NCBI RefSeq assembly: GCF_900094805.1
Contig: NZ_FMAT01000005.1
Coordinates: forward strand, 1 to 64,000
Length of the DNA stretch: 64,000 bases
Reading direction: 5' to 3'
Source of the DNA: Arthrobacter sp. NIO-1057
GTDB lineage: Bacteria > Actinomycetota > Actinomycetes > Actinomycetales > Micrococcaceae
Part shown: positions 11,277 through 38,711 of the stretch, piece after piece
Layout of the letters: the number at the start of each line of letters is the position of its first letter
Position numbering within the stretch: position 1 is the first letter of the stretch
Translations under genes and position numbers: made by a program
Notes under the pieces: model-generated
The model's database searches: none
What the model was told of the DNA's origin: nothing
What the model saw: only the letters and a program-made list of their open reading frames with translations

Positions 11277-12050
11277 ATGGGCAGTAAGGTTCCAGCGGCC
11301 GATAACACCCTGAGGATCCTGCGCCTTTTGGCCAGCAGGAAAAGCCCTACCCCGGCGGCGATGATTGCCTCCTTGCTCCAATTGCCGCGCTCCAGCGTCT
11401 ACCAGTTGCTCACAGTCATGAACGAGCGGGGATTTGTCACCCATTACCCGGAGGATAAGTCCTATGGTTTGGGCATTGCCGCGTTTGAGCTGTCCAGTGC
11501 CTACACCCGTCAGGAACCCCTGGCCCGGCTAGGGGCTCCGCTCATTGCGCAGCTGGTGGATAAGGTCGGCGAGAGTGCCCACCTGGCGATCCTGCACGGA
11601 TCGGATGTCTTGTACATTGTGGAGGAACGTGCCAAGGGTCGGCCTTCGCTGGTCACCGATGTGGGGGTACGCCTGCCCTCGCATCTGACCGCTTCGGGCA
11701 GGGCGATCTTGGCAGCCCTGCCCAAATCTCAGGTCCGGGCCCTGTACCCGAATGCCGCCAGTTTCACAGATCGTGTGGAGCAGTCCTCGATCACCAGCTA
11801 CTCGCAATTGCGTCGCGAGCTAGAGCAATGCACTCAACGTGGTTATGCGGTGGAGCGCGGGGATGTCACCGAGGATTTCCACTCGCTCGCGGTAGAAATC
11901 CGGGATGCGAACGATTGGCCGGTCGCCGCGGTGGCGGTCACCTTCCTCGCTGAGAAGGTCCCCGAAGAGCGTCACGAGATCCTGCTGACCCACATTCGCT
12001 CGACCGCGACCGCCTTGACCTCGCGCATTCAGGGGCGGCGTCCGGCCTGA
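11277..12050 (+). CDS. hutR: IclR-family regulator, probable HutR
   Basis: 257 residues: an N-terminal winged helix (about 5-75, NTLRILRLLASRKSPTPAAM) and an IclR effector domain (about 80-250, VGESAHLAILHGSDVLYIVEE). A perfect ribosome site (AAGGAGG) lies six bases before the ATG. It sits just upstream of hutU. In Corynebacterium resistens the IclR-type HutR activates hut genes through the motif TCTGwwATwCCAGA (as I recall the published consensus), and exactly such a site lies before hutU here. So I infer that this protein controls histidine degradation. Confidence 0.75.
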   Translation: MGSKVPAADNTLRILRLLASRKSPTPAAMIASLLQLPRSSVYQLLTVMNERGFVTHYPEDKSYGLGIAAFELSSAYTRQEPLARLGAPLIAQLVDKVGESAHLAILHGSDVLYIVEERAKGRPSLVTDVGVRLPSHLTASGRAILAALPKSQVRALYPNAASFTDRVEQSSITSYSQLRRELEQCTQRGYAVERGDVTEDFHSLAVEIRDANDWPVAAVAVTFLAEKVPEERHEILLTHIRSTATALTSRIQGRRPA

Positions 12051-13274: not shown

Positions 13275-13372
13275 GAGGCCATCTTTGCATGTACGCCGTG
13301 CCCTGTGGCCAAAAATTCATGGTGCGGCTGGATCAAAAGATCAGCTGCGTGCCATGCCAATAAAGCGGCCGA

Positions 13373-13389
13373 TCTGAAATACCAGACAG
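13373..13389 (+). promoter_or_regulatory. HutR operator upstream of hutU
   Basis: TCTGAAATACCAGACAG. The first 14 bases fit the corynebacterial HutR consensus TCTGwwATwCCAGA without mismatch. It ends 83 bases before the hutU start. Related sequences precede hutH and hutG in this window. Confidence 0.75.
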
Positions 13390-13472
13390 GTCTACCGATT
13401 GGACGGTACTCATCGATCGCCTCATGACCAATCATGGAATTAGTCAGCCACGTTACACCGTTAGGAAAGTCC

Positions 13473-15149
13473 ATGAGTCACGAACCCCGCGTCGTCCGCG
13501 CCCCACGAGGCACCACACTGAACGCCAAGTCATGGGCCACCGAAGCGCCCCTGCGTATGTTGATGAATAACCTCGACCCCGAAGTTGCAGAGCGCCCAGA
13601 AGATCTGGTGGTCTACGGCGGAACCGGCAAGGCTGCCCGCTCTTGGGAAGCTTTTGATGCCATCGTTGAAACCCTGAAGGATCTCGAAGAGAACGAAACC
13701 TTGCTGGTCCAGTCGGGCAAGCCGGTAGGGGTCTTCAAGACGAATAAATGGGCCCCACGTGTACTCATCGCCAACTCCAATCTGGTGGGCGACTGGGCCA
13801 ACTGGGAGCATTTCCGCAAGCTCGAAGCTGAAGGCCTGATGATGTACGGCCAGATGACCGCCGGTTCATGGATCTACATTGGTACCCAGGGCATCTTGCA
13901 GGGCACCTACGAGACTTTCGCCGCGGTTGCCAAGAAGCGCTTCAACGGCACCCTTGCCGGCACCCTGACCCTGACCGGCGGTTGCGGCGGTATGGGCGGA
14001 GCGCAGCCGCTATCGGTCACCTTGAATGGCGGCGCGGTGCTGATCATCGACGTGGACGAGTCCCGCCTGCGCCGCCGCGTTTCCAAGCGCTACCTTGACG
14101 AGGTGGAGCTGGATCTGGACAAGGCACTTGAGAAGGTACTGGCAGCCAAGGCCGAAGGTCGCGCACTGTCCGTAGGCTACGTCGGCAACGCCGCAGAGGT
14201 CTTCCCGGCACTGCTCAAGCGCCACCAGGCTGGCGAGTTCACCATCGACATCGTCACCGACCAAACCTCGGCCCACGATCCACTGAGCTACCTGCCGACC
14301 GAATACACCATGAAACAGTGGGACGCCGAAGCCAAAGCAGATCCCATCGGCTTCACCAAGAAGGCCCAGGCAGCCATGGCTGCCCAGGTCCAGGCAATGG
14401 TCGAGTTCCAGGATGCCGGCGCCGAGGTCTTCGACTACGGAAACTCGATCCGCGACGAGGCGCGCAAGGGCGGCTACACCCGCGCCTTCGAATTCCCGGG
14501 CTTCGTCCCTGCCTATATCCGCCCGTTGTTCTGCGAGGGCCTTGGCCCATTCCGCTGGGTTGCACTTTCTGGCGACCCGGAAGACATCCGCGTCACCGAT
14601 GAGGCATTGAAGGAACTATTCCCAGAGAACGAGCACCTGCACCGCTGGCTTGATGCAGCTGAGGAGAAGGTCGAGTTCGAGGGCCTGCCGGCACGCATCT
14701 GCTGGTTGGGTTACGGCGAGCGCCACAAGGCCGGCCTACTCTTCAACCGGCTGGTCGCCGAGGGCAAGGTTTCAGCCCCGATTGTTATTGGGCGTGACCA
14801 TTTGGATTCGGGTTCAGTCGCTTCGCCATATCGCGAAACCGAAGCCATGAAGGACGGCTCGGATGCAGTCGCAGACTGGCCACTGCTGAACGCGCTGACC
14901 GCCACCAGCTCCGGTGCCTCGTGGGTATCGATCCATCATGGCGGCGGCGTCGGCATGGGCCGTTCCATCCACGCCGGCCAGGTTTCCTTGGCTGATGGCA
15001 GCGAACTGGCTGCCGCGAAGCTCGAAGCGCTGCTCACCAATGATCCGGGCATGGGCGTCATCCGCCACGTGGATGCCGGATACGAACGTGCCGCCGAGGT
15101 CGCCGCCGAGCGCGGAGTGCGCATTCCGATGGCAGCGCAGGAGAAGTAG
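13473..15149 (+). CDS. hutU: Urocanate hydratase
   Basis: 558 residues, normal for the family. It converts urocanate to 4-imidazolone-5-propionate, step two of histidine breakdown, using tightly bound NAD+. Visible: the NAD-binding glycine-rich [12 protein letters not shown] (about residue 175) and the active-site Cys in [11 protein letters not shown] (about 354). The ATG at 13473 has AGGAAAG eight bases upstream. It is transcribed alone and ends in a strong terminator. The HutR operator lies in its promoter. Confidence 0.97.
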
Positions 15150-17347: not shown

Positions 17348-17388
17348 AACGGACCGCGATTGGCATGCCAATTGCGGTCCGTTCCTTT
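17348..17388 (+). terminator. Terminator of DUF3060 lipoprotein gene
   Basis: Arms AACGGACCGC and GCGGTCCGTT with inner ATTGGCATGCCAAT, then CCTTTCT. Confidence 0.8.
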
Positions 17389-17405
17389 CTGCCTCCGTGG
17401 CGCTG

Positions 17406-17422
17406 TCTGGCATTTCGGACAG
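17406..17422 (+). promoter_or_regulatory. HutR operator upstream of hutH
   Basis: TCTGGCATTTCGGACAG, about 90 bases before the hutH ATG, nearly the same distance as the site before hutU. It matches the reverse-orientation HutR consensus at 12 of 14 positions. Its 22-base context agrees with the hutG site at 18 positions. Confidence 0.6.
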
Positions 17423-17512
17423 ATGACCCGATTATCGATGCCGTGCCATCCCGTTCTGCCGAACAATGGGAATTAGAGACCTCATTGCAGCGCAGAGAAC
17501 GGATTGAACATC

Positions 17513-19054
17513 ATGACTGCTTCCCCACTCGTCACCCTGGACCTTACTGGAGCAACCGCCGATAACGTGATTGCGGTAGCCCGGCACAACGCGCAGATCC
17601 GCATCGCGCCACAGGTCCTCGAAGAACTGGCCACGGTTCGCTCCCACATCGATGCCCTCGCCTCGGCCGACACCCCGGTTTATGGCATTTCCACCGGTTT
17701 CGGCGCCTTGGCTACCCGCCATATCGCGCCCGAGGACCGCGCGAAGCTGCAGCGTTCGCTGATCCGCTCGCACGCAGCCGGCATGGGGGAACCGGTGGAG
17801 CGCGAAGTGGTGCGTGCGCTGATGTTCCTGCGCGCCAAGACCTTGGCCTCCGGCCGCACCGGCGTACGCCCGGTCGTGCTGGAGACCATGGTTGGACTGC
17901 TCAACGCCGGCATCACCCCGGTAGTGCGTGAATACGGTTCGCTGGGCTGCTCGGGCGACCTTGCCCCGCTCTCCCACTGTGCCCTGGTGCTGATGGGCGA
18001 AGGCGAAGCCACCGACCGCGAGGGCGTGCAGCGCCCCGTGCCGGAACTCCTCGCAGAGGCAGGACTGGAACCTGTGGAACTGGCGGAGAAGGAGGGCCTG
18101 GCGCTGGTCAACGGCACGGACGGCATGCTCGGCCAGCTGCTGATGGCGTTGGCGGATCTCGAAGAGCTCGCAGACATTGCCGATGCCACCGCCGCCATGA
18201 GCGTCGAAGCCCAGATGGGCACCGACCAGGTCTTCCGCGCCGAACTGCACGAGCCACTGCGCCCGCACCCGGGACAGGGCCGCAGCGCGGCGAACATGTA
18301 CAACTTCCTTTCCGGTTCCCCCATTGTCGCCTCGCACCGCGAAGGCGATGGCCGGGTGCAGGATGCCTACTCGCTGCGCTGCTCCCCGCAGGTGACCGGC
18401 GCAGTGCGGGACACCATCGCCCACGCACGCCTGGTTGCCACCCGCGAACTGGCGGCGGCCATCGACAACCCAGTGGTCCTGCCATCGGGCGAGGTCACCT
18501 CCAACGGCAACTTCCATGGCGCTCCGGTCGCCTATGTCCTGGACTTCCTGGCCATCGCGGTTGCCGATCTGGGCTCCATCGCCGAACGCCGCACCGACCG
18601 CATGCTCGACCCTGCCCGGTCCCGCGACCTGCCGGCTTTCCTGGCTGATGACCCGGGCGTGGACTCGGGCATGATGATCGCCCAGTACACCCAGGCGGGA
18701 TTGGTTGCCGAGAATAAGCGCTTGGCCGTACCGGCGAGCGTGGATTCCATCCCGTCATCGGCAATGCAGGAGGACCATGTTTCCCTGGGCTGGCATGCGG
18801 CCCGCAAATTGCGCACCGCGGTGGGCAACCTGCGCCGCATCCTCGCCATTGAAATGCTGATTGCCGGCCGTGCGCTGGACCTGCGCAAGCCATTGCAGCC
18901 GGGGCCGGCCACCGGTGCCGTGCTGGAGCTGCTGCGCACCAAGGTCGCAGGTCCAGGCGAAGACCGTTTCCTGTCTGCCGAGCTGGAAGCGGCCTGCGAA
19001 TTGCTGGCTACCGGCGAAGTGCATCGCGTGCTGGAACCCCATCTGGCGAAGTAG
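17513..19054 (+). CDS. hutH: Histidine ammonia-lyase
   Basis: 513 residues. It deaminates histidine to urocanate, the first step of the pathway. The MIO prosthetic group should form from C146-S147-G148 in GSLGCSGDLAPLSH; many family members have Ala-Ser-Gly here. Other signatures: GISTGFGALA, SGNFHG-like SNGNFHG, and QEDHVSLG. I start at the ATG (17513, MTASPLVTL) rather than the in-frame TTG at 17504. The gene has its own promoter with a HutR-like site and is not in an operon with hutU. Confidence 0.96.
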   Translation: MTASPLVTLDLTGATADNVIAVARHNAQIRIAPQVLEELATVRSHIDALASADTPVYGISTGFGALATRHIAPEDRAKLQRSLIRSHAAGMGEPVEREVVRALMFLRAKTLASGRTGVRPVVLETMVGLLNAGITPVVREYGSLGCSGDLAPLSHCALVLMGEGEATDREGVQRPVPELLAEAGLEPVELAEKEGLALVNGTDGMLGQLLMALADLEELADIADATAAMSVEAQMGTDQVFRAELHEPLRPHPGQGRSAANMYNFLSGSPIVASHREGDGRVQDAYSLRCSPQVTGAVRDTIAHARLVATRELAAAIDNPVVLPSGEVTSNGNFHGAPVAYVLDFLAIAVADLGSIAERRTDRMLDPARSRDLPAFLADDPGVDSGMMIAQYTQAGLVAENKRLAVPASVDSIPSSAMQEDHVSLGWHAARKLRTAVGNLRRILAIEMLIAGRALDLRKPLQPGPATGAVLELLRTKVAGPGEDRFLSAELEAACELLATGEVHRVLEPHLAK

Positions 19055-35956: not shown

Positions 35957-36913
35957 CTACCCCACTGCGATTTCGTAGATTAGTCGAGCCGCACTGCGTG
36001 CCGTACGTGAGTCAATGTCATAACGCGGGTTCAGTTCAACGACCTCAGCGACGACAACCTTTCCGCTAGCGACCACTTGGCGACATACCGAGAGGATCCG
36101 CTCAAAAGGGACACCAAAACCTGCTGGAGCACTAACACCAGGCGCCACGCTAGCCGGCAATACATCCAAATCAATCGTTAGGTAGAGAACATCAATACGC
36201 TCAAGGAAGGCAGCAACAAACTCTCTTATTTGGACAGGCTCGCAATCCTCGTCGAGAAGATAAGGAACACCAAGTTCCTCAGCCTTGTCGAAAAGTGCCG
36301 CAGTGTTTCCCGGTCGCGAGATGCCCAGCACCGCATAGTGGAAATCCCGGCCCTGCTGAACCATCTGACCGTACAAATCTAAAAATGGCGTGCCGCTGGT
36401 TCGCTGACTTTCATCACGCAAATCAAAGTGCGCGTCGAGGTTCAATATTCCGATTCTTGTTGACCGGTCATCTGCCAAATGTTGCAACAACCCCAGGCCC
36501 GTGCCGTAGGCGGTTTCATGTCCGCCGCCAAGCACAATGGGAAATGCACCAGAGTTCAGCGTTTGTGTTACCGCACCAGCCAGTCGCTCCTGACCAGATT
36601 CCAGCTCGTCGCCTTCAACAACAACGTCTCCTAAATCCACGAGCTCACGCTGATTATGGATGGCCATGGGACTCAGCGCCGCACGCAAAGCTGCCGGCGC
36701 ATCCGAAGCGCCAACTCGTCCCTGGTTCCGTTTAACGCCCGCGTCGGAACAAAAACCTATCAGCGCCACCGAATCCTGAATATCCCCAGATTGTTGGGCA
36801 GTAACGAGCTGATTCCAGCGCAAGTGCTGGGCCCCAGAACCGTCCACCCTGCCCGAATACTGTGGTGCTTCACGATCGGTTTGAATCATTGCTGTCTTAT
36901 CGTTTTCATTCAT
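35957..36913 (-). CDS. hutG: Formimidoylglutamase
   Basis: 318 residues, ureohydrolase family. Mn-binding motifs are GGGHETAYG, NLDAHFDLR and TIDLDVLPASVAPGVSAPAG. The GGGHE form is that of HutG rather than agmatinase or arginase (GGDHS). It hydrolyses formimidoylglutamate to glutamate and formamide, ending histidine degradation. Start at the ATG at 36913 (GGA upstream); a TTG at 36952 is possible. It is 17 kb from hutH, but a HutR-like operator lies about 56 bases before its start. Confidence 0.88.
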   Translation of the reverse strand: MNENDKTAMIQTDREAPQYSGRVDGSGAQHLRWNQLVTAQQSGDIQDSVALIGFCSDAGVKRNQGRVGASDAPAALRAALSPMAIHNQRELVDLGDVVVEGDELESGQERLAGAVTQTLNSGAFPIVLGGGHETAYGTGLGLLQHLADDRSTRIGILNLDAHFDLRDESQRTSGTPFLDLYGQMVQQGRDFHYAVLGISRPGNTAALFDKAEELGVPYLLDEDCEPVQIREFVAAFLERIDVLYLTIDLDVLPASVAPGVSAPAGFGVPFERILSVCRQVVASGKVVVAEVVELNPRYDIDSRTARSAARLIYEIAVG

Positions 36914-36954
36914 AAGTCCAGCACAGCAGAACACCGTTCTTTGTTCTAGCAAAA

Positions 36955-36996
36955 TTAATCAGGTGCTGTCCGGAATTCCGGACAGCACCTGATTAA
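36955..36996. promoter_or_regulatory. 42-bp perfect palindrome: HutR-like operator and terminator
   Basis: A perfect inverted repeat from TTAATCAGG to CCTGATTAA, centred on GGAATTCC. Its core, TCCGGAATTCCGGACAG (36969-36985), resembles the sites before hutU and hutH, so it may bind HutR ahead of hutG. It also lies right after the stop of the PTH2-like gene and would fold as that gene's terminator (TTTTG follows on the minus strand). Confidence 0.6.
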
Positions 36997-37003
36997 AGGC
37001 AAA

Positions 37004-37657
37004 CTAGCTTTCCTGGATGTAGACAAAAGCTGTCGTAGATCCCGGTTCAATTTCTGTACGCCCCGCGTCTTGGATCACCGGGCCGCTGGCCTTGTGCGAC
37101 AGCGCGTCAAACTCTTGGCGTGAAAGGTGACGGATCCCCACTGGCGCCTGAACCTTGAGCCATTCTTCGATGCCTTGCCCATCAGACTCCGTGAGCCAAG
37201 CGAAAAGAGCATGTGCGCATTGCGCCGCAGCTTTTCCGGTGGACATCTCCAATGAATCATTTACAGCAATGCTCACCTTAGCATTTAAGATTTCATCGCT
37301 CTTGGGAAGCTCAGTTCCAGATACCTGTAACTTGGCGATGAGTTTGGGAAGGTTAACTGCCGGAAGCGGGGGCAGACCGACCGCCTGAGCTTTACCCACT
37401 TCACTGACCATTTGGTCCGGGAACATTTCTAAGACTTTGGCGAACATCTTCGGATTTGCACGGCGTACCGACTTGGCAAAGGCTTGGGATGCCCAGCGCT
37501 GCCAATCCGGGTTATGCGGATCTTGCAGATAGGCGATGACTGCCGCCCGAGAAACCGCCGAGAGCCCTTCATCTTCAGTCGATGGATCCTCTTTATCAAT
37601 ACGTAAAATGATGGGCTGGACCAGTTCTTCGGGATCGCGTTCGCGCAGTTCATCCAT
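37004..37657 (-). CDS. PTH2-type peptidyl-tRNA hydrolase domain protein
   Basis: 217 residues. The C-terminal part (from about residue 120) matches the Pth2 fold: NDSLEMSTGKAAAQCAHA and later IQDAGRTEIEPGSTTAF, the conserved DAGRT-containing loop. Bacterial-type Pth is unrelated; Pth2 is the archaeal/eukaryal type. The first about 115 residues are a helical extension (SRAAVIAYLQDP, KMFAKVLEMFPDQM) I cannot assign. Whether it acts on peptidyl-tRNA is unproven. Confidence 0.8.
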   Translation of the reverse strand: MDELRERDPEELVQPIILRIDKEDPSTEDEGLSAVSRAAVIAYLQDPHNPDWQRWASQAFAKSVRRANPKMFAKVLEMFPDQMVSEVGKAQAVGLPPLPAVNLPKLIAKLQVSGTELPKSDEILNAKVSIAVNDSLEMSTGKAAAQCAHALFAWLTESDGQGIEEWLKVQAPVGIRHLSRQEFDALSHKASGPVIQDAGRTEIEPGSTTAFVYIQES

Positions 37658-37723
37658 GAGTACATTCTAGGTTGAAGCGATCGGCGAACACCTCAGACAC
37701 CGCAAGCATCGAGACTTCATAGG

Positions 37724-38542
37724 CTATCTGTGTCGCACTTTACGAACAATCACGATGATGACGCTGGTGAGCATAGCGGTAGCAAGAGAGATAATCAGCG
37801 GGGTTTGCCAATCAACTTCTCCAAGCGAAGAAGCAAATTCTTTACCGAATTCACTCAATGCATGACCACTCGTCTTTTCCGACTGAATCACTCTGGCAGA
37901 ACTCTCAATTACGGCCGGCATCACCCATTGAATCGCCAGGGCAAGTACCCAAAAGATCAGGTTTATCGCGCGAAGAAATCCGACAAATCCAAGGATCAAG
38001 CCCAGGACCACAGGCCCTGTGTACCAAAGATAAATATAGTAAGACTGAGCCCCGGCGATCAACGATGCGACAATTTGTAGCCAATAGCTAACGCTGACCG
38101 TGAGCGTTGCATAAAACAAGGTTGCGACAGGCAGTGGCAACTTTGAACTAAGAAAATACCATGCCTGGCCAATGACCAATAGGCCACCAAATACCCACAA
38201 CTGCCTCGTCGTCGTCGGCGAGAGATTCCCGCTGAAAGCATCTGGATCAGTGGCCAAAATTCCCTGTGCGCCCAGAGCCAACATTCCAAGGAACAAGCCG
38301 ACTGCGTTCACTACAGCGAAGCCAGTTCTTCCACGTCCGATTCGGCGAACTAGCCAGCTACCCAGCAATGAAGTTAGGGCGAAGACAACAATCAATCCAA
38401 GAGCATCGTTACTGCCAAGAGGCAAGATCGAATGATCTTCTTCACCGATCCACAACCATGGCATCACAACGATGGCCGCGATCAAGACGCCACCAGCAAT
38501 TTGCATCCACCAGTTTTGCCAGACGCGTCGTATTGAACCCAT
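37724..38542 (-). CDS. Polytopic membrane protein of unknown function
   Basis: 272 residues with about seven hydrophobic segments. The last helix is followed by a short basic tail (VRKVRHR), and a soluble loop of about 35 residues precedes it (SEKTSGHALSEFGKEF). I do not recognise the family. The ATG at 38542 (MGSIRRVWQNWW) has AAAGGGC seven bases upstream; the frame is open 24 codons earlier. Confidence 0.65.
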   Translation of the reverse strand: MGSIRRVWQNWWMQIAGGVLIAAIVVMPWLWIGEEDHSILPLGSNDALGLIVVFALTSLLGSWLVRRIGRGRTGFAVVNAVGLFLGMLALGAQGILATDPDAFSGNLSPTTTRQLWVFGGLLVIGQAWYFLSSKLPLPVATLFYATLTVSVSYWLQIVASLIAGAQSYYIYLWYTGPVVLGLILGFVGFLRAINLIFWVLALAIQWVMPAVIESSARVIQSEKTSGHALSEFGKEFASSLGEVDWQTPLIISLATAMLTSVIIVIVRKVRHR

Positions 38543-38711
38543 TTCGCCCTTTCTAGTTCTTACGCGTTCATTGTTCCAGAGCAAGTCGAGCCTGACGCGA
38601 ACGGCATGGGGCATGTCAACAAAATTGGCACCGAGAGTACATCAAAGGGAACTGTCGCTGGCGTTCGCACATTTGGAAGAAGCTGACCGAGTAGCGTGTC
38701 GAGAAAAGCAA

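Follow-up and report, generated by a model that had tools for sequence, protein, structure and literature searches.

A HutR-type site forms the center of a perfect palindrome between a PTH2-like gene and hutG in the window analyzed here, i.e., the first 64,000 nucleotides of contig NZ_FMAT01000005.1 of Arthrobacter sp. NIO-1057, hereafter the host. We consider it probable that this center is an activator site of HutR, that the hairpin formed by its RNA copy terminates the transcript of the PTH2-like gene and that HutR activates four hut loci. The most likely history, judging from the sequences, is that the intrinsic terminator of the upstream gene took over the activator site as its upper stem. 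The features on which this reading rests are collected in Table 1.

Table 1. Features of the window bearing on the hutG palindrome and on the histidine genes
Feature	Position	Strand	Evidence or remark
IclR-family regulator, proposed HutR	11277..12050	+	PF01614, PF09339; orthologs near hut genes elsewhere
HutR-type site of hutU, ATCTGAAATACCAGAC	13372..13387	+	1 mismatch to core pattern
Putative -10 hexamer of hutU, AATCAT	13430..13435	+	offset 58 from core start
hutU, urocanate hydratase	13473..15149	+	TIGR01228 above cut-off
Separate hairpin between upstream stop and hutH site	17348..17383	+	18-nt arms, 94% complementary
HutR-type site of hutH, GTCTGGCATTTCGGAC	17405..17420	+	exact core
Putative -10 hexamer of hutH, AACAAT	17462..17467	+	offset 57 from core start
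hutH, histidine ammonia-lyase	17513..19054	+	TIGR01225 above cut-off
hutG, formimidoylglutamase, ATG at 36913	35957..36913	-	TIGR01227 above cut-off; PF00491
Putative -10 hexamer of a leaderless hutG promoter, TGTGCT	36920..36925	-	-12 to -7 from ATG; conserved spacing
42-bp perfect palindrome; minus-strand RNA hairpin, proposed intrinsic terminator of the PTH2-like gene	36955..36996	-	fold, compensatory changes, single genome copy
HutR-type core site before hutG, palindrome center, GTCCGGAATTCCGGAC	36968..36983	.	exact core, one of two in genome
PTH2-like gene, in tandem upstream of hutG, C-terminal PTH2 domain	37004..37657	-	PF01981, 49.9 bits (cut-off 23)

A terminator-like palindrome behind the PTH2-like gene

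The initial annotation of this DNA had described a perfect 42-bp palindrome directly behind the stop of the upstream gene, with a regulatory site at its center. This was confirmed, the palindrome beginning 7 nt after the stop codon of the PTH2-like gene (37004-37006). Its two 21-nt arms (36955-36975 and 36976-36996) adjoin each other without a spacer and show 100% complementarity, and it is the longest of the four perfect inverted repeats found in the window (arms of ≥11 nt, loop of ≤8). The minus-strand RNA of the palindrome folds with -36.8 kcal/mol (z of -9.2), which none of 200 shuffles equalled, and a terminator scan lists the stem as terminator-like with 19 pairs, followed by TTTTGCTAGA on the minus strand. 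The general scan of the region gave no excess of terminator-like matches (3 found versus 5.8 expected), and an Rfam search of positions 36000 to 38700 gave no match at the gathering score. The product of 37004-37657 scored below the cut-off with the NCBIfam PTH2 models. An origin of the palindrome from a dispersed repeat was rejected, a second copy being absent from the genome.

HutR-type sites at four histidine genes

The three sites quoted in the initial annotation, for hutU, hutH and hutG, are all present, and 18 of 22 positions are identical between those of hutH and hutG, as had been stated. Since hutI, located on a different contig, carries a site too, all four histidine genes of the host are site bearing. 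The earlier claim that hutG is part of the histidine regulon via a common site is supported, and the regulon is wider than proposed, with hutI included. The genome-wide motif scan suggested at the time was run as well: the strict core GTCYGNNATNNCRGAC occurs exactly in only two places of the 3.54-Mb genome, namely at hutH and hutG, and two of its 15 one-mismatch places are those of hutU and upstream of hutI. The 18-mer RTCYGRVATWYCRGACAG has exact matches in the genome only at the four hut promoters, which it was bound to match as it was built from their sites; at ≤2 mismatches it gave 10 forward and 4 reverse matches, compared to 2 and 2 for the control. Loose motif searches were uninformative alone. 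Indeed, a pattern allowing ≤2 mismatches gave 10 matches in the window against a mean of 5.43, as many being reached in 8 of 100 shuffles (not significant), and 335 matches genome-wide against 340 for the reversed pattern, i.e., no excess. The analysis therefore leans on exact cores, context and spacing.

It had also been claimed that the hutU site fits the HutR consensus exactly, and this holds for the 14-mer TCTGwwATwCCAGA, a form which we take to be that of the HutR motif. It does not hold for the 16-mer GTCTGWWATWCCAGAC, the form in which the motif of Corynebacterium resistens is printed in PMC8222616, the first base of the hutU site being different. The host has GTCTGWWATWCCAGAC or a close form of it upstream of the four hut genes, the center of the hutG site, GTCCGGAATTCCGGAC, being such a close form. 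For hutU, the ATG at 13473 was picked as the start because of its AGGAAAG ribosome site. At hutH, a terminator-like hairpin and the site are neighbors but are not fused.

The overlapping hutU pieces of G004 (L219 and L220) lie in different frames and are both 99% identical to the hutU of the host; this split is a frameshift, either in the genome or in its sequence.

The site is linked to hutG rather than to PTH2

The best-named relatives of the hutG of the window belong to Glutamicibacter and Arthrobacter (44-68% identity among the best 80 of 318 loci), and the host is Glutamicibacter-like. Reading adjacency from coordinates, we found hutG directly after PTH2 in 10 genomes of the genus and not in 8. 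The site is present downstream of PTH2 in all 10 genomes with an adjacent hutG (8 exact, 2 with one mismatch), and no site (≤2 mismatches, 200 nt) follows PTH2 in any of the 8 others. Given this distribution, 10/10 with hutG adjacent and 0/8 otherwise, the site belongs to hutG and not to PTH2. Five of the eight (G001, G005, G010, G012 and G015) have hutG 2 to 3 kb off, with its own site there. Likewise, no long palindrome follows PTH2 in the same eight genomes; a palindrome kept in relatives where hutG is absent, which the initial annotation held to speak against its reading, was seen in none of them.

Within the genus, the site (≤1 mismatch) precedes all 15 orthologs of the window-type hutG, with 11 exact cores and 4 with one mismatch, and no site was found at the hutG loci of G003, G009 and G017 (48-50% identity). 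In the 18 genus genomes, sites with ≤1 mismatch are found at hutU in 18, at hutH in 18 and at hutI in 16, the hutI genes of G003 and G017 lacking one at this threshold.

Two hutG genes of unlike type, 63% and 49% identical to that of the window, are present in G005. The other-type hutG of G003, G009 and G017 lies, by eye, directly after an IclR-like frame.

The spacing of the site points to an activator

We analyzed the distance between site and start codon in 101 distinct hutG loci (110 minus 9 second copies), of which 67 have a site (≤2 mismatches, within 300 nt). An in-frame ATG or GTG lies at 69 to 71 nt from the core start in 60 of these 67 loci, and at exactly 70 nt in 51. The same spacing holds for 19 of 22 exact cores and for 40 of 43 cores with ≤1 mismatch. 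Any in-frame start in the range was accepted, for the motif and the controls alike; the reversed motif was found at 3 loci, none of them with this spacing, and of two scrambled palindromes one was found at 3 loci (0 with this spacing) and the other at 2 (1 with it). Similarly, counting from the core start, 16/16 hutI promoters have a -10-like TANNNT hexamer at offset 57 or 58, and NANNNT is found at offset 58 in 16/18 hutU and at offset 57 in 18/18 hutH promoters. For hutG, 10 of 15 loci have TNNNNT at offset 58 and 5 have it at offset 57; as the scores of offsets 53 and 55 are comparable (10 and 9), the hutG argument rests on the start-codon spacing.

According to these distances, hutG and hutI are apparently leaderless, in which case the centers of their sites would be located at -62.5 (hutG) and -61.5 (hutI). 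A fixed spacing of about -62 across promoters and species would, with these putative starts, represent the geometry of an activator. The initial annotation had proposed a common operator: the site is indeed common to the hut genes, but its position near -62 makes an activator site likelier than a repressor operator. If hutG is leaderless, an attenuator in its 5' leader is also unlikely, because the hairpin would lie upstream of the transcript start.

The IclR protein as the candidate regulator

All 17 other genomes of the genus have a match to the IclR protein encoded at 11277-12050 (72-99% identity), which is also matched in other genera and families. In G032, its ortholog is divergent from hutG with a site in between; in G035, G023, G026 and G027, it lies ≤10 kb from hutG, and in G036, G039 and G042, ≤1 kb from hutH. 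Exact cores are present in the hut loci of all eight genomes; the hut locus of G050 has no exact core site. Among the 30 genomes whose hutG locus was examined, the hutG site (≤1 mismatch) was found in 20, and all 20 have the ortholog (E ≤1e-30). The site is found in none of the 5 genomes without the ortholog, and 5 more (G003, G009, G017, G028 and G030) have the ortholog without a site at the hutG locus examined. The value for this co-occurrence, calculated by hand and ignoring relatedness, is 252/142506 = 0.0018; over 31 genomes, a set that includes G033 but no hutG locus from it, it is 0.0027, again ignoring relatedness.

We judge it improbable that a different regulator binds the site or that the 11277 protein is a repressor. 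The genome does contain 12 IclR_C matches, and 40 nt separate the start of the 11277 gene from a preceding pfkB-type kinase frame with which it may be co-transcribed; both facts would favor this alternative. However, the orthologs lie near site-bearing hut genes in several genera and families and accompany the site in 20/20 genomes. As for repression, the promoter is not covered by a site near -62, and according to PMC4401554, the IclR factor of C. resistens was shown to activate hut.

In G030, the IclR ortholog adjoining hutG has an internal TAA (L159), and hutG has no site in the stretch examined. It is possible that regulator and site decayed together.

The hairpin around the hutG site varies by compensatory change

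A long hairpin is present at hutG in 5 of the 10 genomes having PTH2 adjacent (G000, G004, G002, G014 and G016) and absent in the other five, and a branch of the PTH2 tree (95/91) sets the long-arm genomes apart from the rest. When the hairpins of the five species were aligned, 7 of 18 pairs were found to vary, 5 of them by a double-sided change. Overall, 95.6% of the cells are paired, which 0/500 shuffles reach (slid pairings give 26-43%), and five double changes were reached by 2/500 shuffles. The six core pairs are invariant, the variation being confined to the outer stem, and one G-U pair is found on the transcript strand. This comparison of the intergenic region in relatives, one of the checks named in the initial annotation, thus indicates that outer-stem pairing is kept by compensatory change, which supports the idea that the hairpin has been selected for. 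The site would be older than the hairpin, the latter having been added around it in some lineages.

Site and hairpin are also fused at hutI and in another genus

The hutI genes of the host and of G002 have a separate 14-bp hairpin immediately beside the site. In G013, G010, G015 and G012, which the hutI tree groups in a different clade (99/99), a tandem frame, identified in G013 as a transport permease, is followed closely by a long hairpin that includes the site. In the alignment of these hutI hairpins, 95% of the cells are paired and three pairs are double changed, a number reached by 90/500 shuffles, the number of pair types being reached by 313/500; compensatory change would thus be only partly evident here. 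The arm count of 8 for the hutI of G012 is due to an internal mismatch, the fold showing a longer stem. Finally, in G035, the sole genome found in its genus, a hairpin with 16-bp arms encloses the hutG site, 26 nt past the stop of a tandem xanthine/uracil-family permease frame. Overall, the tandem frame ends 17 to 32 nt before the core in 10/10 fused cases, so that a separate terminator could hardly fit in between. Barring repeated losses of the hairpin, the fusion of site and hairpin would apparently have at least three separate origins. The T-tracts of the ten fused cases weakly support the proposed direction of termination, with 60 T on the proposed side versus 43 on the opposite one; the count favors the opposite side in G016 and G012, and the tracts are mediocre outside the species of the window.

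The hutH sites of G014 and G002 were considered as further fusions and rejected, their 14-nt arms (with a wobble and one mismatch) being reduced to 9 and 8 perfect pairs.

Could the long palindrome represent only an extended protein site, bound by two HutR dimers or a tetramer, and not terminate at all? According to PMC8222616, tetrameric binding is possible for IclR proteins, many of which have tandem sites 18 to 22 nt apart, and the mediocre T-tracts of several cases would fit such a role. Nevertheless, we regard it as quite unlikely: the palindrome has a single center instead of two shifted ones, most other sites of this regulator lack the outer arms, which vary freely among species with the pairing retained, and the hairpin stands right after the tandem stop in every one of the ten cases.

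Still far less credible, in our view, is a mobile or repeat-derived element or a DNA cruciform overlapping the site incidentally. Perfect palindromes without a spacer are unusual among terminators. In Escherichia coli, inverted repeats with the potential to form cruciforms are overrepresented near promoters and behind stop codons (PMC6060812). Yet the genome holds no second copy, the centering on the site is exact in three apparently separate cases, and the G-U pairs of two aligned hairpins fit RNA better than DNA.

The hutI of the host (L248) is 98% identical to that of G002 (L249) and 85% identical to that of G004 (L252), G004 being the nearest genome to the host for hutG, HutR and PTH2 (97-99%). 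An exchange of the hutI locus between species seems to have taken place. The hutI regions of G010 and G013 are nearly identical as well. Upstream of hutI, the permease frame has 157 open codons in G015 (L258) versus 321 to 376 in G012, G013 and G010, possibly owing to a frameshift.

Discussion

From the site, its spacing, its linkage to hutG, the hairpin, the compensatory changes and the recurrence, all of which are read from the sequence, we infer HutR binding, activation, transcript starts, termination and shielding as follows. The IclR protein HutR would bind the center of the palindrome and, from about -62, activate the leaderless hutG promoter. It would likewise activate hutU, hutH and hutI, so that four scattered histidine loci would be under the control of one regulator. 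In the clade of the host, a long hairpin immediately past the tandem upstream stop would have arisen by outward extension of the dyad of the site, and the RNA copy of this hairpin would end the transcript of the PTH2-like gene. One stretch would thus serve as an activator site in its duplex form and as a terminator in its RNA form, and the hairpin may shield the hutG promoter from read-through. The initial annotation had suggested that one element ends one transcript and controls the next. The linkage to hutG and the compensatory changes support this view, with the amendment that the control is more likely exerted by an activator than by a repressor.

Two constraints are visible in one stretch of DNA, one on the letters of the core, which activator binding would impose, and one on the pairing of the flanks, which the RNA hairpin would impose. 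Three apparently separate origins suggest a general route by which a tandem gene may acquire its terminator, a palindromic regulator site just behind it serving as the seed. More tentatively, and we would rather doubt this extension, palindromic activator sites would repeatedly become such seeds before close tandem targets, and the overlap would couple the two functions, bound HutR aiding the halt of the upstream polymerase and read-through clearing HutR from the hutG site. Were this true, transcription of the upstream gene and histidine catabolism would influence each other. A further prediction of our reading is that, across the Micrococcaceae, the HutR regulon is scattered and its sites have the geometry of an activator. 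Terminator callers and motif scanners may each detect just half of such elements.

HutR, its motif and intrinsic terminators are already known. What seems new, going by the literature searched, is the probable use of an activator site as the upper stem of the terminator of the preceding gene, in several lineages. Our search covered HutR, site/terminator overlap and the hut genes of Glutamicibacter, with most subscription journals outside its coverage, and the arrangement was not found in it.

Schroder et al. (2012) reportedly described the HutR regulon of C. resistens DSM 45100. According to PMC8222616, PMC3350403 and PMC4401554, the proposed regulon of the host resembles this IclR-family system in the regulator, the motif, the histidine genes and the reported activation. 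However, C. resistens has one hut gene cluster, whereas the host has four separate hut promoters, and the hutG site of the host lies within a terminator-like hairpin.

The position of the site is reminiscent of class I activator promoters. CRP acts at -61.5 in such promoters, and the center of the HutR-type site would lie at about -61.5 to -62.5 across the four promoters of the host. Unlike CRP, the regulator proposed here belongs to the IclR family, and the starts are putative ones, hutG and hutI being apparently leaderless. Lastly, the hairpin is similar to intrinsic terminators between tandem genes in that it is stable and located just past a stop, and in the species of the window a possible T-rich tail, TTTTGCTAGA, comes after it. 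It differs from them in the mediocre T-tracts of the relatives and in the putative activator site, which in the host would fix the upper stem and the loop so that only the outer stem drifts.
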